The position numbers and the translations under genes were made by a program. The notes under the pieces were generated by a model. The model ran no database searches and was not told where the DNA came from. It saw only the letters and a list, made by a program, of their open reading frames with translations. From Lachnospiraceae bacterium (GTDB lineage: Bacteria > Bacillota > Clostridia > Lachnospirales > Lachnospiraceae), in assembly GCA_024695605.1 (NCBI GenBank), contig JAILHW010000040.1, forward strand, positions 1-52,879: a stretch of DNA of 52,879 bases, in the 5' to 3' direction. This document shows positions 35,739 to 49,649 of this stretch, piece by piece; within the stretch, counting starts at the first letter, position 1, and each line of letters starts with the position of its first letter.

Positions 35739-35774
35739 TCAGTTGGGTCTTTGAAAAGGCATAGGAGGAGTAAA

Positions 35775-36782
35775 ATGGAGACGATCAAAAATTATTTGGA
35801 AAATATGTTTGCCAATCTTCCCAATTCGGCAGAGGTAAAGCGTGCTAAGAAAGAGCTTCTGCAGATGATGGAGGATAAATACAATGAGCTGATTTCCGAA
35901 GGAAAGAGCGAGAATGAAGCAGTTGGCTGCGTGATCTCGGAGTTCGGAAATCTGGATGAGCTGGCAGATGAGCTGGGGCTGGAAGAGGAAGTCAAGATCG
36001 AGAAGGCACAGCTTGAGGAAAGCCCCCGCCACATGGTTTCCTTAGAGGAAGCCAAGGATTACCTTCGGGATATGGGAAAGACGGCTTTCGGCGTGGCACT
36101 TGGCGTAGCCCTTTGCATCTTAAGCGTAAGCTGGCCGGTGATGATCTCTTCCATCGGATTTTTACCGGATGGTCTGGGCGTTCTGTTCATGTTTGCCACC
36201 ATCGCATTTGCAGTCGGACTCTTCGTAGTCTGCGGCAATATTGACAGCCGCTGGAAATACTTAAAGAAGGAGCTTTGCTCCATCGATTATTCCACGGCCA
36301 CCTTTGTTCATCAGGAAAAGGAACGCTTCCATGCAAGCTACGTGGTACAGCTGACCGTGGGCATCGTGCTCTGTGCAGTCTGCTGGCTTCCGGTAGCGGT
36401 CCTTGACGGGATCAATCCTTTGGGACTGACCAGCCTCGGGAAATTTTTGGAAACCATAGGCGTTGTCTTTCTGTTTGTGATCTGCGCCATCGGCGTATTC
36501 ATGATCGTACACGCAGGCAACATCAATTCTTCCTTTGAGCTTCTGTTAAAGCTCAATGACCGGCAGACCGTAGCCGGCAACTTTGTACCGGAGGACTTTG
36601 AGCGGTACGCAAATCCGGTATCCGACGGCTTTATGCAGGTTTACTGGCCGACCGTCCGCGCCTTTTATCTGATCTGGAGCTTTTTGACCTTTGCCTGGCA
36701 TAAGACCTGGATCATCTGGCCCATCGCTGCGGCGGTTCATGCGGTATTAAAGAGCATCTTGAAAAAGGACGAGGAGCTGTAA
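35775..36782 (+). CDS. Membrane protein with DUF1700-like / permease-prefix N-terminal domain
   Basis: METIKNYLENMFANLPNSAEVKRAKKELLQMMEDKYNELISEGKSENEAVGCVISEFGNLDELA, then several TM segments; GGAGGAG RBS before ATG 35775. Confidence 0.85.
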   Translation: METIKNYLENMFANLPNSAEVKRAKKELLQMMEDKYNELISEGKSENEAVGCVISEFGNLDELADELGLEEEVKIEKAQLEESPRHMVSLEEAKDYLRDMGKTAFGVALGVALCILSVSWPVMISSIGFLPDGLGVLFMFATIAFAVGLFVVCGNIDSRWKYLKKELCSIDYSTATFVHQEKERFHASYVVQLTVGIVLCAVCWLPVAVLDGINPLGLTSLGKFLETIGVVFLFVICAIGVFMIVHAGNINSSFELLLKLNDRQTVAGNFVPEDFERYANPVSDGFMQVYWPTVRAFYLIWSFLTFAWHKTWIIWPIAAAVHAVLKSILKKDEEL

Positions 36783-36806: not shown

Positions 36807-37661
36807 ATGACAGACGAAAAGAAATTTACGGGTTGGAAAAAAACATATATCGGTCTTTTGAATGCGGCAACGGTGATCTGCATCATCTTGGGACTGATGA
36901 TCCACGTAGGCGGATGGATCGGAGACGATCTGGTCAAAGGATTTATGGGGATCGGAAGGACAGTCTCCTCCGGGGAGCGCAGTACAACCTCCAGAGAGCA
37001 GGCGCTTGGCAGCTTTGATAAGGTTGAGGGCACGGTAGCCATCGGAAATGTGGTATTTGCTTATGGTGATGAATACAATGTTTCCTATGAAAACTACCCG
37101 GAGGCGGAAACACCGAGCCTGAAGCTTTCCGGTTCTACCTTAAAGATCGAGCAAAAGGCCTCCAATCGCTGGGGCATGAACGATATCAAAAACCGTTTCT
37201 CCGGTGCTAAGGTATGCATCACCGTACCCAAGGGAACAGCCGTTGAGGTGGATCTGAATCTGAACATGGGCGCTGTGGAAGCAGAGGATATGACCCTTGG
37301 AAAGGTGAAGCTCGATGCGGATATGGGTGCCATTACCATGAAGAACGTCACTGCCAGAAAGCTGGATCTGAATGCGGATATGGGTGCCATCACTCTGGAA
37401 CAGACAACCTTTGAGGACGGCAATATGAAGGCAGCCATGGGCGGCATCACCTTAGAGGATGTGACCTTTGATGACTGCGAGCTGAAGGCCGATATGGGCG
37501 GCATCAGCGTGACCGGATCCTTCAGTGATCTGGAAGCGGACTGCGATATGGGCGGCATCGACGTACAGTATGACAATGCTGACTGCGAGCTGGATCTGAA
37601 TGCCGATATGGGCGGTATCACCGTCAACGGAGAAAGCGTGGGAAGAAAGTACCACAGGTAA
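36807..37661 (+). CDS. DUF4097 family beta-strand-repeat protein
   Basis: One TM segment, then NMGAVEAEDM/DMGAITMKNV/DMGAITLEQT/AMGGITLEDV/DMGGISVTGS/DMGGIDVQYD/DMGGITVNGE repeats. Confidence 0.88.
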   Translation: MTDEKKFTGWKKTYIGLLNAATVICIILGLMIHVGGWIGDDLVKGFMGIGRTVSSGERSTTSREQALGSFDKVEGTVAIGNVVFAYGDEYNVSYENYPEAETPSLKLSGSTLKIEQKASNRWGMNDIKNRFSGAKVCITVPKGTAVEVDLNLNMGAVEAEDMTLGKVKLDADMGAITMKNVTARKLDLNADMGAITLEQTTFEDGNMKAAMGGITLEDVTFDDCELKADMGGISVTGSFSDLEADCDMGGIDVQYDNADCELDLNADMGGITVNGESVGRKYHR

Positions 37662-38079: not shown

Positions 38080-39987
38080 GTGAATAAAAACAAGAAGAGA
38101 TTTAAATTGAACAGGTCTTCCGTATTGATCCTGACAGTGTGTGTTCTGCTGTTTCTGGTAATGGGACTGATCACGTATATCAAGGTCAGTGAGCTGATGC
38201 TCGATCAGAGCAAGCAAAGCGGTATGAATCTGGCGCGGACCATTGCAGCCGAGATCGACGGTGATCGGATGAACGAGGTGCGCTCGGAATCGGATCCCGG
38301 ATATTCCGTGATCCTGAGCATCATGAGCAAATACCGGTACTATACCTATGTCAAATACATCTATACGATGCGGCTGGAGGATAAGGCCAATCTGTCCTTT
38401 GTGGTGGACGGGGATCCGGAGGATCCGGCAAAATGCGGGGAGGCCTATACGCTTACGGATGATATGCTTCCGGCTTTTTCCGGGGAGGTCTGCAGTGATA
38501 CGCAGGTCAGCACGGATGCCTGGGGAAGCTATTACAGTGCCTATGCGCCTGTCTTTTGTGCTGACGGATCGGTGGCCGGTATTGTGGGCGTGGATATCGA
38601 TGTCAATTATATCAATTCCTATCTGAACAAGCTGATGCTGGCGCTGGCGACGATCTGTATCTTCTTTGCCGTGATCACTGTGGGCCTGTATATGCTCTTT
38701 TCCATCGAGCTGACGGGCAAGGATGTGCTGACAGGACTTTATACCTATGAAACTCTGGTCAAAAAGGGCAACAGTCTGAAAAAGCACGGCGAGCTGGTGG
38801 GCCGTACGGCGGTTTTGGTCAATATCAAGGGCTTTAAGTATATCAACAGACAATACGGCTATGATTATGGAAATGAGCTTTTAAAATCTCTGGCAAAGTT
38901 TTTGCGGGAGGGTCTGATCCAGGGAGAGATGATCGCCAGAACGGGAAATGACAATTTCTGCATCCTGGTGATGAACGAGCGCTCCGCTGCCTATATCGCA
39001 AGGCTCAAGCAGACCAATCCCACCTCCATTGATGCCGCTATGCCGGACGGACTTCCCGCCCCGGTGCGGTGCGGTGTTTATACCATCAAGGAGGATGATA
39101 CCATGGAGCAGGTCATGGGGATCTGCACCGTAGTCATGAATGTGGCCAGGAACCGGAAAAAAGAGGATATCGTTTATTACAACCGGGAAATCTACGAAAA
39201 TATCTTAGAGGAGGGAGATCTTTTATCCTCCTATAAACAGGCCATCCGGAACGGAGAGTTCAAGGTCTTTTACCAGCCCAAGGTGGATATCGCCACCAAT
39301 ACCCTTTGCGGTGCCGAGGCTCTGGTGCGCTGGCAGAAGGAGGACCGGTTCATCTCTCCGGGACAGTTCATTCCGCTTCTGGAAAACGAAGGGCTGATCA
39401 CGGAGCTGGATTTTTATGTGTTTGAAACCGTCTGCAATGACATCCGGCTTTGGAAAAATCAGGGGATCACGCCGGTTCCCATCTCTTCGAACTTTTCCAA
39501 GCTCCATCTGAGCAATCCGGATTTTGCCGAAAAGATCGTAAAGACGGCTGACAAGTGGCAGACAGAGCACAGATACCTGGCGGTGGAAATGACGGAATCC
39601 TCCGGGTATTCGGATATGGAGGCGCTGACCACCTTCGTGGAGCAGATGAACAAGACCGGGATCCGGGTCAATATGGATGATTTCGGAACGGGCTATTCGT
39701 CCCTTTCCCTTCTCGGGGATGTGGATATGGATACCATTAAGATCGACAAATCCTTCGTGGATCGGATCTTCGGAGAACGGGAAAGCGGCTCGAAGCTGGT
39801 ATCAAGCGTGATCCGTCTGATCCATGATATGGACCGTGAGGTCATCTGTGAGGGTGTGGAGACCATAGAGCAGGTGAACTTTTTAAAGAAAACAGACTGT
39901 AAGCTGGTACAGGGCTATTATTTTGACAAGCCCCTGGAGCACAGCGTATTTACCGAGAGGCTCAAGCATCCGGCATATGAAAGGTAG
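38080..39987 (+). CDS. Membrane sensor with degenerate GGDEF and intact-looking EAL domain
   Basis: N-terminal TM plus Cache-like extracytoplasmic domain, TM, TGNDN in place of GGDEF, then GAEALVRWQ, MDDFGTGYSSLSLL, IKIDKSFVD, CEGVET. GTG start. Confidence 0.92.
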   Translation: MNKNKKRFKLNRSSVLILTVCVLLFLVMGLITYIKVSELMLDQSKQSGMNLARTIAAEIDGDRMNEVRSESDPGYSVILSIMSKYRYYTYVKYIYTMRLEDKANLSFVVDGDPEDPAKCGEAYTLTDDMLPAFSGEVCSDTQVSTDAWGSYYSAYAPVFCADGSVAGIVGVDIDVNYINSYLNKLMLALATICIFFAVITVGLYMLFSIELTGKDVLTGLYTYETLVKKGNSLKKHGELVGRTAVLVNIKGFKYINRQYGYDYGNELLKSLAKFLREGLIQGEMIARTGNDNFCILVMNERSAAYIARLKQTNPTSIDAAMPDGLPAPVRCGVYTIKEDDTMEQVMGICTVVMNVARNRKKEDIVYYNREIYENILEEGDLLSSYKQAIRNGEFKVFYQPKVDIATNTLCGAEALVRWQKEDRFISPGQFIPLLENEGLITELDFYVFETVCNDIRLWKNQGITPVPISSNFSKLHLSNPDFAEKIVKTADKWQTEHRYLAVEMTESSGYSDMEALTTFVEQMNKTGIRVNMDDFGTGYSSLSLLGDVDMDTIKIDKSFVDRIFGERESGSKLVSSVIRLIHDMDREVICEGVETIEQVNFLKKTDCKLVQGYYFDKPLEHSVFTERLKHPAYER

Positions 39988-40470: not shown

Positions 40471-41319
40471 ATGGCATACCTGGCAAACCCTGCCAATACG
40501 GCAGCGGTGTTAAAAAAATATGAGTTTCATTTTCAAAAGCGATACGGACAGAACTTTTTGATCGATCCCCATGTGCTGGATAAGATCATGGACGGTGCCG
40601 AAATCTGCGGCGATGACGTTGTACTTGAGATCGGACCCGGTATCGGGACCATGACGCAGTATCTGGCCGAGCGGGCCAAAAAGGTGATCGCGGTGGAGAT
40701 CGATGATAAGCTGATCCCGGTACTGGCGGATACGCTTTCTTCCTATGATAATGTAACGGTCCTGCATCAGGATATCCTGAAGGTGGATCTTGCAAAGCTG
40801 TCAGAGGAGGAGGCAGGGGGCCGGCCGATGAAGGTTGTGGCAAATCTTCCCTACTATATCACGACGCCCATTCTGATGGCGCTGCTGGAGCAGAGGATTC
40901 CCTTTGAAAGCATTACGGTAATGGTACAAAAAGAGGTGGCCGAACGGATGCAGGCAAGAGAAGGCACCAAGGACTACGGAGCGATCACGCTGGCGATCCG
41001 TTATTTTACCGAGCCAAAGATCATTGCCCAGGTTCCGCCCAACTGCTTTATGCCAAGGCCCAATGTGGGCTCTGCGGTGATCAGGCTGACAAAGCACAAA
41101 ACACCGCCCGTAACTGTCAAAGATGAGGCCAAAATGTTTGCCACCATCCGGGCGTCTTTTAACCAGAGGCGAAAAACCCTGGTCAACGCCCTTGCAGGCG
41201 GAGGCATTGCGGAAAAGGAAAAGACCCTGAAAGCCCTGCAGAGTATGGGACTTTCCGAAACCATCCGGGGAGAGGCGCTGACGGTGGAGCAGTTTGCCAG
41301 ATTATCGGAATTATTATAA
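40471..41319 (+). CDS. rsmA: 16S rRNA dimethyladenosine transferase RsmA/KsgA
   Basis: KRYGQNFLIDPHVLDKI, VLEIGPGIGTMTQYLAERAKKVIAVEID, VANLPYYITTPILMALLE. Confidence 0.96.
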   Translation: MAYLANPANTAAVLKKYEFHFQKRYGQNFLIDPHVLDKIMDGAEICGDDVVLEIGPGIGTMTQYLAERAKKVIAVEIDDKLIPVLADTLSSYDNVTVLHQDILKVDLAKLSEEEAGGRPMKVVANLPYYITTPILMALLEQRIPFESITVMVQKEVAERMQAREGTKDYGAITLAIRYFTEPKIIAQVPPNCFMPRPNVGSAVIRLTKHKTPPVTVKDEAKMFATIRASFNQRRKTLVNALAGGGIAEKEKTLKALQSMGLSETIRGEALTVEQFARLSELL

Positions 41320-43170: not shown

Positions 43171-43211
43171 AGACAATGTATGTTCACTCATAGAAGCAGG
43201 AGATAACAAAG

Positions 43212-46200
43212 TTGGATAGATTTGAGTATGAAATAAGGGCGAAGGAGATCGTTTCCCTCTATAAACAAGGGGAATACGCCAAAGCAGTCAAGATCGTGGA
43301 TACCATCGATTGGAGAAGGGTCCAGGGTCTTACGATGCTTTACAGGGTCAGCGATATTTACAGGCATACCCGCAGATACGAGGAGAGCCGGGATATTCTG
43401 CTGATGGCCAATGAGATCAGCCCCAATACCAAGAGAGTGGTATATGCTCTCTGCGAGCTTTCGATCATTTTGGAGGATCCGGTTAAGGCGGTCGAATATT
43501 TCGAGCAGTACAAGCAGATCGCACCCCACGAGGTGGACCGCTTTATCCTCCAGTACAAGATCTACGAATCCCATGACGTGTCCCTTGAGGAGCGGATCGC
43601 GGTTTTGGAAAAATACAAGATGTACAACTACGACGATCCCGATCCGAAGTGGACCTATGAGCTGGCATATCTGTATCACCGCATCGGTCTGACCACCAGA
43701 TGCGTGGAGGAATGTGACGAACTGATCCTGTGGTTCGGTGACGGCGAGTATGTGTATAAGGCATTGGAGCTTAAGATGCTGCACGCACCCCTGACCCCTA
43801 CCCAGCAGGAAAAATACAATGCCCGTTTTCTGGAAAAACGGGAGGCCATCGCGCTTGCCGAGCAGGCCGGTATGGAAAACGGCATGGAAACGGATGTACA
43901 GACGCCGATGAACATCAGCGTGAAAAATGTGGCACCCACCAGAGCCAAGACCACCAGGATCCCTTCCCTTCGTATGGGCTGGAAGAACCGGGCAGCAGCC
44001 GCGCAGGTTGAAGAGGATGCGGATATCCGCATTGCGGATGAAAAGGATATGGCCAGATATCACAGAGGCTACAAAAAAGAACAGGAGCCTGCTGTGTATG
44101 AGGAGGAGGCCTACGAGGACGAGGCTGCTTACGGTGAAGATCAGGAGTATGAGCAGGAAGCCTATCCTGAAAATGAGGAAGCCTATGAGGAGGAAGCCTA
44201 CGAAGAGGAGGCTTATGAAGAAGAGGCTTACGACGAGGAGCCTTATGACGAGTCCGAGGAGTATGAGGACGAGGAGTACGAGGAAGAAGAATACGACGAG
44301 GACGAAGAAGACGAAGAGGAATATGAAGAGGAGTACGAGGCCGTAGAGGACGACTTCGAGGAGGAGCCCTACGACGAGGAAGCCTATGAAGAGGATGAGG
44401 AAGGCTTCGAAGAGGAAGAGGACTGGGAAGAGGAAGAAGAGCGTCCCGCCGCCGAGGATCCTGTAAAGCTTGCCGAGACCAAAGATCTTTCAAAGGCCAT
44501 CGGCGCCGTAGTGCTGCCTGAAGGCAGTCAGGCAAAGCCCGCAGAAGAAAAAGAAGCCGCACCGGCAGAGGATGATGATGAGGATATGCGCATCGTGACC
44601 CCGGATGTGGAGGATATCAAGGTCCGTACCATCGATGCCGGCAACCGTTTTGATACCATTAATTTAGAAGAAGAGACCAGTAAATATCTGGCAAAAGAGA
44701 TCGTAAAGCTGATGGAGGAGGATGACATGGAGGCTGCGGATGCGACCCGTGCCCTGCCCATGAATTCCATTTTCCATGACAGCATCGATTCCCTGCAGCC
44801 GCATGTGATCTCCAGAGCCATTGAAATGGCAGAGGAGATGAACAACGAACGGATCGCCAGACAGACCGGACAGATTCCGCAGTTCGGACAGGGAGATACG
44901 GTAGAGATCGAAGAGGTCTATTCCGAGGAAGAACCGGATCAGACCCCCGAAGCAAAGGATAGCGTAGATACAGGGGCGCCTGCAGAAGCAGCCGGGCAGA
45001 CAGCCGGGGCGCCTGAGCAGACAACTGAGATCTCAGCAGAGGAGTCCGCAGAAGAGCCTGCAGAGGAGCCTGCAGAGGAGCCGGTCTATACAGAGGATGA
45101 TTTTGTAGAGATCAATGATGACTTCGAAGAGATCTTCGAGGATGAGGAGGCATTCTATGATGAAGAGGATGCCGCAGATGAGCAGGATTTTGATGAGGAC
45201 GCACCCGTAGATGCGGATATGAGACAGATCACCGCCGATGAGGATATGACCGAGATCACGGCGGATGAGGATCTGACAGAGACGGATGCAGATGAGGAGC
45301 CATATTCCGAGGAGGATCCGGATGAGACCTTCGATCCCGCCATGCTCTTCGATGAAGAGGAATACGAAGAGGATGCGGACGAAGATGCGGATGAAGAGGA
45401 CGCCGAGGCCTTTGATGAGGAAGATCCTGAGGAGGCCATAGAGAGTGATCAGGAGCAGATAGAAAAGGCAGAGGCAGAGGCGGCAGCGCCAAGCGTACAG
45501 GAAGAGCCAAAGGCACAGGCCGATCAGATCGAGCCCATTGTCTTTTCCCAGAGTAAGCCCCTTCCCAAGGAGTTTATTGAGGCGGTTCAGATCGTAGCCA
45601 TGGAAGCTGCCAAGGAAGCGGCGGCAGCGGCAGCGGCGGCAGCAGCCTCCCAGGTAGCGGCAGCGGCAGCCTCCCAGGCAGCAGCGGCGGCAGCAACCCA
45701 GGTGGCACAGGCATCTCAGGTCCAGGCCGCACAGGTAGCCCGTCAGGCAGCGCAGGAAGCGGCAGCGGCTACGGCAGATGCCATGAAGGAGATGCAGCCC
45801 GTCATCGAAAAGACGGAGGCGCCTGCAAAGGCAGAGCCTGAAAAACCGCAGGAGACGGCGCCCGAAGAGCCTGAAAAGCCCATGGTGGAAAAACAGATCA
45901 CCGGACAGCTGAGCTTTCGGGATATCATTGCCGAGTGGGAGGATGTAAAGAAGGCGACCGAGCAGCAGCAGATCGAAGAGATCAAGCAGAAGGTGAAGGA
46001 GCAGAGCAGTCCGCTTCTGAATCATTACGATAACGCATCCGCCTTCGAGCAGGATGAGCTGGATACCATCTCTCCGATGATCGATGTCTTTGACGGGGCA
46101 GAGGAGCTGGAACAGGAAGCCAGGACCACTTTGCAGAAAAAGATGGAGCGCGTATCCGAGGAGGCAGAACAGCAGGAGGCCGGGGAGGATGTGATCCCCG

Positions 46201-47669
46201 AAAAGAGCCTGGAGCCTTCGGATGTGCAGGAGCCGGAAGCAGATGCAGAATCGGAGCCGGAGGCTGTCTTTGATGAGGAAGAAGAGCCCGGGGAGCCGGT
46301 AGAAAATACAGAAGAAGAGCCGGAGGAAGAGCCCGAAGAGCCGGCAGAAGAAACAAAAGAAGATACAGAAGAAGAAACAGAAGACGAGGCCGAAGCCGAA
46401 GCAGAGATGACAGGGGAGCAGACGGCTGATGAGAAGCCAGAGAAGAAGGCGGCATCATCCGGCAGCTTTAATACCGCCGAGATCAACGGACTGGAGGATA
46501 AGCTGGTATCGGCACTTGCAGGCCAGCACTATGATACCTCCAATCTGCAGGCAGAGATCCTGCACAGCATTCTGGATGAGGCAAAGGAGCAGGAGCCTGC
46601 ACCTCTAGCAACCAGTGCAGCCGAGGCCGTGGCAATGGCAAAGGCAGCCCAGCTGGCGGAGCAGGGCGCTGTTAAGAAGGCAGAACAGGAAGAAGATACC
46701 ACTACTCAAAAAGAAGCTGAGACGAAGGAGGCCTCTTTAGGGGAGACTTCCGAGCATAAGGAGATGGACGTAGATAAGCTCTATGCCCAGCTGATGGAGA
46801 AACAGGCAGCCGAGGCCGCGATGCAGGAGAAAGCCGGGGCCGAAGCGGAAGGAGCCGCGCCGGAAAGTGCAAAGAGCCAGAGCGCGGACGCATCCGAAGG
46901 AGAGGAGACAGAGGAAGCCAGAGTCCTGACCAAGGAGGAACGGGATCTGTTTTCCCATGTTGCCAACGGCAAGCAGATGCAGCAGAGACTGGCCCGCATC
47001 ATCGATCAGGCAAGTCTGGAGCCCCTGGCCTCCAATATCCGCGTTGTGGGTGAAAACGGTACCGATCCCGAGACAGTCGGCAGGGAGCTGGTTGCAGCCA
47101 TCGGTCTGTACGCGCCTTCCGTCAGTGAAAAATCCGCGGTGCTGACGGCAGAGGAGCTTTCCGGACAGAATATGGACAGCTTCCTTTCCCAGTACAATGA
47201 CGGATCGCTTGTGATCACAGAGGCAGGCTCCATGACGGCGGATACCGTCAGCAGACTGTTTGAAAAGGCAGGCAGCCTGAGCGGACTTTTGATCGTGCTC
47301 TGTGATACCGATGACAATATGCAAAGGCTGACAGAGGCCAATCCGAAGGTGGAGGAATATGCTTCGCAGAAGCTTGTCGTGGATGTACTCGATAACGACG
47401 GACTGGTATCCTTTGCCCAGGTTTATGCCAAGGAAAAGGAGTATTCCATTGACGAGATGGGCAAGCTGGCACTGTACAACCGCATTGAGGAGCGTCAGCG
47501 TCAGGACCATGCAGTGACCACCGCAGAGGTGCGGGGCATTGTGGATTCCGCCATCGAGAAGGTGGAGAAAAAGGGCATCGGACGCTTCGTGGACGTGCTT
47601 TTGGCAAAACGATATGACAAGGAAGACATGATCGTCCTGCGGGAAAAGGACTTCATGCTGGATAAGTAA
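43212..47669 (+). CDS. Giant acidic multi-domain protein: TPR-like N-terminus, acidic/Ala-rich disordered centre, C-terminal SpoVK/CbbX-like AAA+ fold lacking nucleotide-binding motifs
   Basis: 1485 aa, TTG start with aggag RBS. Helical repeats at the N-terminus, long Glu/Asp/Tyr repeats, polyalanine stretch, then VGENGTDPETVGRELVAAIG, SLVITEAGSMTADTVSRLF, LLIVLCDTDDNMQRLTEANPKVEEYAS and TTAEVRGIVDSAIEKVEKK. Confidence 0.8.
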   Translation: MDRFEYEIRAKEIVSLYKQGEYAKAVKIVDTIDWRRVQGLTMLYRVSDIYRHTRRYEESRDILLMANEISPNTKRVVYALCELSIILEDPVKAVEYFEQYKQIAPHEVDRFILQYKIYESHDVSLEERIAVLEKYKMYNYDDPDPKWTYELAYLYHRIGLTTRCVEECDELILWFGDGEYVYKALELKMLHAPLTPTQQEKYNARFLEKREAIALAEQAGMENGMETDVQTPMNISVKNVAPTRAKTTRIPSLRMGWKNRAAAAQVEEDADIRIADEKDMARYHRGYKKEQEPAVYEEEAYEDEAAYGEDQEYEQEAYPENEEAYEEEAYEEEAYEEEAYDEEPYDESEEYEDEEYEEEEYDEDEEDEEEYEEEYEAVEDDFEEEPYDEEAYEEDEEGFEEEEDWEEEEERPAAEDPVKLAETKDLSKAIGAVVLPEGSQAKPAEEKEAAPAEDDDEDMRIVTPDVEDIKVRTIDAGNRFDTINLEEETSKYLAKEIVKLMEEDDMEAADATRALPMNSIFHDSIDSLQPHVISRAIEMAEEMNNERIARQTGQIPQFGQGDTVEIEEVYSEEEPDQTPEAKDSVDTGAPAEAAGQTAGAPEQTTEISAEESAEEPAEEPAEEPVYTEDDFVEINDDFEEIFEDEEAFYDEEDAADEQDFDEDAPVDADMRQITADEDMTEITADEDLTETDADEEPYSEEDPDETFDPAMLFDEEEYEEDADEDADEEDAEAFDEEDPEEAIESDQEQIEKAEAEAAAPSVQEEPKAQADQIEPIVFSQSKPLPKEFIEAVQIVAMEAAKEAAAAAAAAAASQVAAAAASQAAAAAATQVAQASQVQAAQVARQAAQEAAAATADAMKEMQPVIEKTEAPAKAEPEKPQETAPEEPEKPMVEKQITGQLSFRDIIAEWEDVKKATEQQQIEEIKQKVKEQSSPLLNHYDNASAFEQDELDTISPMIDVFDGAEELEQEARTTLQKKMERVSEEAEQQEAGEDVIPEKSLEPSDVQEPEADAESEPEAVFDEEEEPGEPVENTEEEPEEEPEEPAEETKEDTEEETEDEAEAEAEMTGEQTADEKPEKKAASSGSFNTAEINGLEDKLVSALAGQHYDTSNLQAEILHSILDEAKEQEPAPLATSAAEAVAMAKAAQLAEQGAVKKAEQEEDTTTQKEAETKEASLGETSEHKEMDVDKLYAQLMEKQAAEAAMQEKAGAEAEGAAPESAKSQSADASEGEETEEARVLTKEERDLFSHVANGKQMQQRLARIIDQASLEPLASNIRVVGENGTDPETVGRELVAAIGLYAPSVSEKSAVLTAEELSGQNMDSFLSQYNDGSLVITEAGSMTADTVSRLFEKAGSLSGLLIVLCDTDDNMQRLTEANPKVEEYASQKLVVDVLDNDGLVSFAQVYAKEKEYSIDEMGKLALYNRIEERQRQDHAVTTAEVRGIVDSAIEKVEKKGIGRFVDVLLAKRYDKEDMIVLREKDFMLDK

Positions 47670-47723: not shown

Positions 47724-49649
47724 ATGGCAGCAAAAAAACAGACCAATCCCATTTTTTTAACAGATGACGACCAGTATCTGTTCGCACAGGGAACCCATTA
47801 TGAGATCTACGAAAAAATGGGCGCTCACGAGACCACGGTGGATGGAAAAAAGGGCGTTTACTTTGCGGTATGGGCACCGAATGCGGAATATGTGAATGTC
47901 GTGGGCGACTTCAACAACTGGGATATCTACAAGGACAATATGCAGCGTCTCGGAGGCGGGCAGATGTTTGCCCTGTTCATTCCCGGCGTGAAAAAGGGCG
48001 ATCTGTACAAATTCGTGATCACCACCAAGGATAACCGCAAGATCTACAAGGCAGATCCCTTTGCCAACAGCGCACAGCTTCGGCCGGAGACGGCTTCCGT
48101 TGTGACGGATCTGAACAGCTTTAAGTGGAGCGATGAAGCCTGGCAGAGCGCCAAGGCGGATAAGGATCTTCTGAAATCTCCCATGGCGATCTATGAGTGC
48201 CACATCGGATCCTGGAAAAAGCATCCGGTAAGCGATCCCAAATCCGAGGATAAGGGCTTTTACAGCTACCGGGAGTTTGCGGACAGCTTTGTGGAATACT
48301 GCAAGGATATGAAATATACCCATGTGGAGCTGATGGGCATTGCGGAGCACCCCTTTGACGGATCCTGGGGCTATCAGGTGACCGGCTACTATGCACCTAC
48401 CTCCCGCTACGGCGAGCCGGAGGACTTTATGTATCTGGTCAATACCCTGCACCGGGCAGGGATCGGCGTGATCCTGGACTGGGTTCCGGCGCATTTCCCC
48501 AAGGATGAATTCGGTCTTGCCATGTTTGACGGCACGCCTTTGTTTGAGTATGCAGACCCGAGAAAGGGCGAGCATCCGGACTGGGGCACCAAGGTATTTG
48601 ATTTTGAGAAAAATGAAGTTAAGGACTTTCTGATCGCCAATGCCATGTACTGGCTGAAGAAGTTCCACATCGACGGACTGCGCGTGGATGCGGTTGCCTC
48701 CATGCTGTATCTGGATTACGGCCGCAGGAACGGCGAGTGGGTACAGAACAAATACGGCAATAACAAGAATCTCGAAGCCATTGAATTTTTCAGACATTTA
48801 AATTCCATCGTCAAAAACGAGTGCCCCGGCTGCATGATGATCGCCGAGGAATCCACGGCCTGGCCGCTGGTAACCGGAGATCCCAAGGAAGGGGGCCTGG
48901 GCTTTACCTTCAAGTGGAACATGGGATGGATGCATGATTTCTGTGCCTATATGAAGCTGGATCCCATCCTTCGAAAGGGCGCCCATTACAACCTGACCTT
49001 TGCCATGAGCTATAATGAGTCGGAAAACTACATCCTTCCGATCTCCCATGACGAGGTGGTGCATCTGAAATGCTCCATGCTGAATAAGATGCCGGGCTTT
49101 TATGTTGATAAATTTGCCAATCTTCGCGTCGGCTATACCTATATGTTCACCCATTGCGGCAAGAAGCTTCTGTTCATGGGACAGGATTTCGGCCAGGACT
49201 GCGAATGGTCCGAGGAGCGGGAGCTGGAGTGGCATTATCTGGCGGATGAGGAACACGGAAGTCTGCATCATTATATGTCAGAGCTGCTTGCGGTGTATAA
49301 CAAATATCCGGCGCTTTATGAGAACGATAACAACTGGAAAAGCTTTGAATGGATCAATCCGGATGACAAGGATAACAGCATTTACAGCTACATCCGAAAA
49401 TCCGCCAACGGCAAGAACAATCTGCTCATCGTATTAAATATGACCCCGATGGAGAGAAAGAGCTATCGCGTAGGCGTTCCGAAAAAGAAAAAATACAAGC
49501 TCTTACTCAACAGTGATGAAAGAGAGTTCGGCGGAACCGGTATGAAGGTTGCCAAGGAAGTATCCGCGAAGGCAGAGGACTGCCACGGCTGGGACAATTC
49601 CATCCTCGTGGATCTGGCACCGTACGCCGCACATATCTATGTGTATTAA
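47724..49649 (+). CDS. glgB: 1,4-alpha-glucan branching enzyme
   Basis: GVYFAVWAPNAEYVNVVGDFNNWD, VELMGIAEHPFDGSWGYQVTGYYAPTSRYG, DGLRVDAVASMLYLDYGR, MIAEESTAWP, LPISHDEVVH. Confidence 0.96.
   Translation: MAAKKQTNPIFLTDDDQYLFAQGTHYEIYEKMGAHETTVDGKKGVYFAVWAPNAEYVNVVGDFNNWDIYKDNMQRLGGGQMFALFIPGVKKGDLYKFVITTKDNRKIYKADPFANSAQLRPETASVVTDLNSFKWSDEAWQSAKADKDLLKSPMAIYECHIGSWKKHPVSDPKSEDKGFYSYREFADSFVEYCKDMKYTHVELMGIAEHPFDGSWGYQVTGYYAPTSRYGEPEDFMYLVNTLHRAGIGVILDWVPAHFPKDEFGLAMFDGTPLFEYADPRKGEHPDWGTKVFDFEKNEVKDFLIANAMYWLKKFHIDGLRVDAVASMLYLDYGRRNGEWVQNKYGNNKNLEAIEFFRHLNSIVKNECPGCMMIAEESTAWPLVTGDPKEGGLGFTFKWNMGWMHDFCAYMKLDPILRKGAHYNLTFAMSYNESENYILPISHDEVVHLKCSMLNKMPGFYVDKFANLRVGYTYMFTHCGKKLLFMGQDFGQDCEWSEERELEWHYLADEEHGSLHHYMSELLAVYNKYPALYENDNNWKSFEWINPDDKDNSIYSYIRKSANGKNNLLIVLNMTPMERKSYRVGVPKKKKYKLLLNSDEREFGGTGMKVAKEVSAKAEDCHGWDNSILVDLAPYAAHIYVY

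Follow-up and report, generated by a model that had tools for sequence, protein, structure and literature searches.

What use can a bacterium have for an AAA+ domain whose catalytic residues have been replaced? The question is raised by a gene on contig JAILHW010000040.1 of a Lachnospiraceae bacterium (GenBank assembly GCA_024695605.1), of which positions 1 to 52,879 were analysed (the window). Inspection of the open reading frame (ORF) and its translation confirms that the gene is real; it starts with a TTG codon that aligns with the MDKYEYKIRAEEI starts of its orthologues and encodes a protein of 1485 amino acids (aa), in which an N-terminal TPR module, a long acidic linker and a C-terminal pseudo-AAA+ domain follow one another (Table 1). 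No Pfam family matches the window protein, its NCBIfam matches all lie below cut-off, and literature searches found the family in no description. The original prediction, made from the letters alone, had proposed this three-part architecture, which independent tools uphold. The protein is probably a Lachnospiraceae-specific cytosolic scaffold or adaptor that works without ATP; we infer its scaffolding function and the identity of its partner, in the same conditional spirit in which the original prediction had spoken of a "scaffold or regulator".

Profile searches, profile-profile (HH) comparison, AlphaFold2 and Foldseek all agree that the C-terminus is the ordered SpoVK/CbbX-type domain that had been proposed, and its fold is that of SpoVK/CbbX/EccA-type AAA+ proteins. 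Specifically, residues 1239-1485 form an ordered AAA+ fold in AlphaFold2 (predicted local distance difference test, pLDDT, 85), and the best Foldseek matches of the domain are CbbX structures. The window protein itself matches TIGR02881 (SpoVK; E 2.5e-6, 26.7 bits) and TIGR02880 (CbbX; E 1e-4, 21.7 bits) without reaching the equivalog cut-off of 422.95 for the former or the cut-off of 459.25 for the latter. TIGR02881 is matched by all 29 rows of an alignment of C-terminal orthologues (A1), and a PDB search with the A1 profile returns EccA1 (E 1.4e-6) and CbbX (E 1.1e-5). HH comparison aligns A1 with SpoVK-type proteins of other Clostridia over 212 columns, including the tail (98.9%, E 1.2e-17); the AAA+ profile E-values span 1e-5 to 1e-17, beyond chance. 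The KRYDKEDM...EKDF tail was dropped as a candidate new motif, since the same comparison finds a homologous tail in SpoVK-type proteins. A comparison of SpoVK-type and tandem CbbX-like origins by profile score gives the SpoVK-type profile the higher value for 40 of 140 members. A protein of another clostridial family (locus L102, 5160-7361) carries an intact tandem CbbX-type AAA+ behind an N-terminus that is possibly TPR-like by eye, and may show how the active ancestor was built.

The N-terminal part, described earlier as TPR-like helices up to about residue 230, is a helical solenoid of tandem hairpins (pLDDT 88.5) with TPR/CTPR matches in Foldseek and in a PDB search with the profile of N-terminal orthologues (A2, 22 rows); the Pfam TPR_8 model scores above its cut-off in an orthologue (L143), not in the window protein. 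The centre is as rich in Glu, Asp and Ala as had been noted: 24% of its residues are Glu, 9% Asp and 16% Ala, which makes it 33% acidic with a net charge of -262.

The catalytic motifs of the C-terminal domain are lost to different extents across the family. In the window protein, the replacement of the Walker A Lys and the Walker B Asp, already seen in the original prediction, is borne out; the Walker B Glu is retained, and sensor-1 GY, the Arg finger and the sensor-2 Arg are missing as well. A copy from another genome (L031), 97% identical at the C-terminus, has the same motif state. Among 132 orthologue rows in which both motif regions are aligned, the Walker B DE pair is absent throughout, with I-I-E-[KRNQH]-A-G in most rows, and 37 keep an intact Walker A, G....GK[ST] (for example GRKGSGKTVLAVDIVK in L108). 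Sensor-1 in the family is mostly D followed by T, Q or E, and the Arg finger and sensor-2 Arg are replaced (A1 columns 146, 201 and 204); in canonical relatives, by comparison, Walker A and Walker B are both intact in 26/26 complete rows and sensor-1 is G-Y in 27/27. Because 37 orthologues keep Walker A and none keeps the DE pair, hydrolysis was probably lost first and nucleotide binding later. The survey of orthologues suggested in the original prediction, where intact motifs were to indicate a local mutation or sequencing error, thus came out mixed: intact Walker A motifs do exist, and together with the general absence of the DE pair they speak for staged decay rather than for an error. A local mutation was also rejected on the ground that the motif state recurs in the independent genome and across the window's clade. 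That the domain still works as an AAA+ ATPase, by means of unusual catalytic residues, might be argued from the 37 P-loops and the retained Walker B Glu, and is very improbable for a protein that lacks all the other residues named above.

A tree built from the TPR module only places the P-loop members as a grade, and all 39 rows of the window clade, whose branch has a Shimodaira-Hasegawa-like approximate likelihood-ratio test (SH-aLRT) value of 98, are without the P-loop. Walker A therefore appears to have been lost once at the base of this clade on that tree; the P-loop would be ancestral, because SpoVK and CbbX have a homologous one. Losses also occurred elsewhere, with 10 state changes in total compared with 39.5 when labels were shuffled. 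In a sister clade (L160, L163-L169, L177 and L178), core and lid plus tail are separated by an acidic linker of about 80-215 residues, in L177 up to about 290, with breakpoints that leave the core up to A1 column 148-155 or so and lid and tail in columns 155-245. Such a split sits poorly with motor function.

The dead AAA+ domain is under strong purifying selection. Relative to L031, the ratio of non-synonymous to synonymous substitution rates (dN/dS) is 0.026 for the core and 0.021 for lid and tail, compared with 0.031 for the TPR module and 0.154 for the linker. Of 25 invariant A1 columns, 21 fall in lid and tail, the corresponding figure for SpoVK-type relatives being 13 of 79 (a smaller set, with the lid counted from I227); conservation has thus moved to the lid. 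The linker, in turn, contains two motifs in fixed order, L1 and then L2, found in 42 and 41, respectively, of the 43 full-length members of the window clade; some P-loop members have them too, and all split-clade members lack them. L1 has not a single non-synonymous change relative to L031 (dN/dS 0). It is next to inconceivable that the domain is decaying and non-functional or a sequencing artefact. Some divergent members do lack a recognisable lid (L099, whose locus includes a long masked run of N, and L100), and no AAA domain was found in L101; for the window clade, this explanation is refuted by the constraint on core and lid and by the recurrence of the motif state, both in an independent genome and throughout the clade.

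The distribution of the protein was followed across Lachnospiraceae in 250 genomes, each from a different genus and many of them drafts. The TPR profile finds it in 234 of these (191 of 201 high-quality genomes), nearly always in single copy, and the C-terminal query recovers orthologues in 212. A class-wide sample contains no full-length member outside the Lachnospiraceae, where matches are intact SpoVK/CbbX-type AAA+ proteins or generic TPRs. Within the family, intact SpoVK/CbbX-type relatives occur in only 90 of the 250 genomes at E <= 1e-30, and since none of them reaches the SpoVK cut-off, Lachnospiraceae may have no true SpoVK as that model defines it. A phyletic pattern tied to sporulation is unlikely for the pseudo-AAA+ protein, given its presence in 234 of 250 genera. 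These counts also bear on whether it could enter the rings of an intact SpoVK/CbbX-type AAA+ of the same cell as a regulatory pseudo-subunit. The window's genome does encode such a relative, a CbbX-like protein of 519 aa with NPGTGKTT and FIDEAY motifs and weak N-terminal similarity to TerB (locus L179, G000:C222:28599-29372). However, the split-clade domain cannot form a normal subunit, and the mismatch between 90 and 234 genomes led us to reject mixed rings as a general role, leaving them scarcely any probability.

How, then, could a motor have become a scaffold? The ancestor would have been an AAA+ of the SpoVK/CbbX/EccA clade of "dedicated chaperones" with an N-terminal TPR. ATP hydrolysis would have been lost first, with Walker B, the Arg finger and the sensors, and nucleotide binding would have followed in the window clade with Walker A, so that the motor was discarded and the AAA+ fold retained as a binding module alongside the other client-binding parts (TPR, linker motifs and lid). 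The TPR module may hold one partner, L1 and L2 may provide further docking sites in a flexible acidic linker, and the conserved lid and tail may hold a partner or small ligand. This is the most economical reading. The clade has been defined as one of dedicated chaperones in which client recruitment may fall to the N-terminal domains, and in CbbX the lid is the binding site of a sugar phosphate, ribulose-1,5-bisphosphate (RuBP) (Delerue et al. 2023, PMC10659427). The protein shares with the clade the AAA+ fold, the order of elements, the NPxL region, the lid, the "T/YxxEDxIxLxxxDF" tail and a variable N-terminal domain as a possible means of client recruitment. It differs in that the whole family lacks Walker B, sensor-1 GY, the Arg finger and sensor 2, in that the window clade lacks Walker A, and in that an acidic linker of about 1000 aa lies between N-terminal domain and AAA. 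EccA of the ESX type VII secretion systems likewise joins an N-terminal TPR to a CbbX-type AAA+, yet its ATPase is intact and encoded in ESX loci, whereas here the AAA is degenerate; EccA is also not known to have a long acidic linker. Neither ESX genes nor a Rubisco gene were found among the window neighbours identified. Pseudo-AAA+ subunits are known from clamp-loader delta, LAP1/LULL1 and dynein AAA5/6, where the fold was kept for binding after catalysis was lost. These proteins sit in or beside an active ring, whereas here an intact relative of this type is lacking from most genomes and one clade has its core split from its lid. Several points weigh against a scaffold that works without ATP: nucleotide binding may matter in the lineages of the 37 P-loop orthologues, the tree that orders the losses was rooted at its midpoint, the linker is presumed to be disordered from its composition only, and the lid could bind a ligand, which would make the protein a sensor rather than a scaffold.

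The neighbourhood offers hints to a partner. In the window, the gene lies among tatD, ksgA, a hydroxyacid dehydrogenase gene, glgB and ileS, and glgB, also on the plus strand, starts 55 bases further on; a promoter scan found 5 candidates where 5.0 were expected, which is chance level. The position next to glgB, noted in the original prediction, recurs in 43 of 89 member loci, always as the next gene on the same strand and in the window clade mostly at 7-60 base pairs (bp). As a hint to function it holds up in part, since the surroundings of the gene vary among clades; in 16 of 89 loci, for example, it lies directly behind recR (after dnaX-ybaB). In 6 loci (L141, L142, L149, L158, L162 and L173), the glycogen phosphorylase gene glgP is directly upstream and ksgA follows within 37 bp downstream, which constitutes a second, separate contact with glycogen genes. 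In the window lineage, the co-operonic branching enzyme GlgB may tentatively be named as the likeliest partner.

Another possibility is that the protein is a chaperone or scaffold dedicated to GlgB and GlgP, organising alpha-glucan enzymes with a lid that perhaps acts as a sensor for a sugar or a sugar phosphate, much as RuBP is bound by the lid of CbbX; CbbX and SpoVK do act on carbohydrate-handling enzymes (PMC10659427). L2 moreover tracks glgB adjacency in raw counts (50/56 versus 10/46) and is absent from eight true glgB-less loci (L188-L195), yet the association rests on 4-6 independent changes or pairs and is not significant after correction for phylogeny. The protein persists in genomes without glgB, and two genomes that retain it, G216 (95% complete) and G186 (86%), have no glgA, glgB or glgP match at the thresholds used, so a strict glgB partnership was rejected; G006 was struck from the glgB-less genomes because its contig carries a partial glgB. 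With the recR loci also against it, a dedicated glucan organiser is rather unlikely, and a glycogen role would be lineage-specific at most.

The retention of the protein without glycogen genes, its TPR and long acidic linker, and its housekeeping neighbours (ksgA, tatD and ileS, or dnaX-ybaB-recR and cvpA on either side of the gene) would also suit a general hub of cell organisation at the pole, the envelope or the nucleoid, for which the neighbourhood would reflect nothing more than housekeeping operons. Downstream of many relatives (L036-L058, L118-L138), a run of glgB, a DUF6240 gene (about 1000 aa), flagellin and FliS, the last two recognised by reading sequences and not by profile, points the same way. 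Reading of the window protein revealed no transmembrane or localisation signal, however, and such a hub is unlikely. More speculative, and decidedly unlikely as it stands, is a family-wide reduction of an AAA+ chaperone to a ligand-gated scaffold, whose lid would be a detachable sensor of small molecules or partners and whose TPR, L1 and L2 would organise central metabolic enzymes (GlgB and GlgP in some lineages) on an acidic, polymer-like protein.

Some features of these loci stand apart. The order dnaX-ybaB-recR, then the gene and usually cvpA, is seen in L160, L163-L169, L176-L178, L190, L191, L193 and L194, a setting in which one would not expect a TPR/pseudo-AAA protein. Further upstream in the window, a gene at 36807-37661 shows weak similarity to LiaG (NCBIfam model, 1e-9, far short of the cut-off) and adjoins a gene for a permease-prefix-domain protein (35751-36782). 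Positions 38080-39987 encode a GGDEF-EAL protein that may contain a Cache sensor, and a gene for a DUF212 (divergent PAP2) protein lies just downstream.

Table 1. Features of the pseudo-AAA+ locus, in positions of the window
Feature	Positions	Strand	Basis or remark
TPR - acidic linker - pseudo-AAA+ protein, 1485 aa	43212..47669	+	ORF, translation, orthologues
Ribosome-binding site AGGAG, 9 nucleotides 5' of the TTG start	43198..43202	+	direct sequence reading
TPR solenoid, aa 1-222	43212..43877	+	AlphaFold2, PDB profile, Foldseek
Acidic, Ala-rich, presumably disordered linker, aa 223-1238	43878..46925	+	composition
Linker motif L1, VKTxDVGxYNTINLQxELAxSMK	44622..44690	+	in 84/137 members
PLPxxFIxAVQxxAMEAAKEAA segment before poly-Ala	45558..45626	+	only in near relatives of the window protein, 10 members
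Linker motif L2, EKQITGQ(L/M)SIxDILxEWExxKKxxE....RVxEQTGxLFxxF	45888..46028	+	in 97/137 members; dN/dS 0.022
Second L1-like copy, GQHYDTSNLQAEILHSI	46521..46571	+	L1 profile match
Pseudo-AAA+ alpha/beta core, aa 1239-1393	46926..47390	+	AlphaFold2, Foldseek, HH comparison
Walker A remnant GENGTDPE (canonical GNPGTGKT), aa 1280-1287	47049..47072	+	family and canonical alignments
Walker B remnant GSLVITEAG (canonical GVLFIDEAY), aa 1331-1339	47202..47228	+	family and canonical alignments
AAA lid and C-terminal tail, aa 1394-1485, with KRYDKEDMIVLREKDF	47391..47666	+	invariant columns, HH comparison
ksgA/rsmA	40471..41319	+	directly upstream in 16/89 loci, directly downstream in 8/89
glgB, branching enzyme	47724..49649	+	GH13 motifs DGLRVDAV, AEEST and SHDEV intact by inspection

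Taken together, these findings describe a pseudo-AAA+ protein that is near-universal in Lachnospiraceae, a dominant family of the mammalian gut, and they place within one family a graded series from AAA+ motor to pseudoenzyme, in which the P-loop is kept, the P-loop is lost, core and lid are separated or the domain is lost altogether. As this series is under selection, the use of an AAA+ fold without ATP becomes directly testable.

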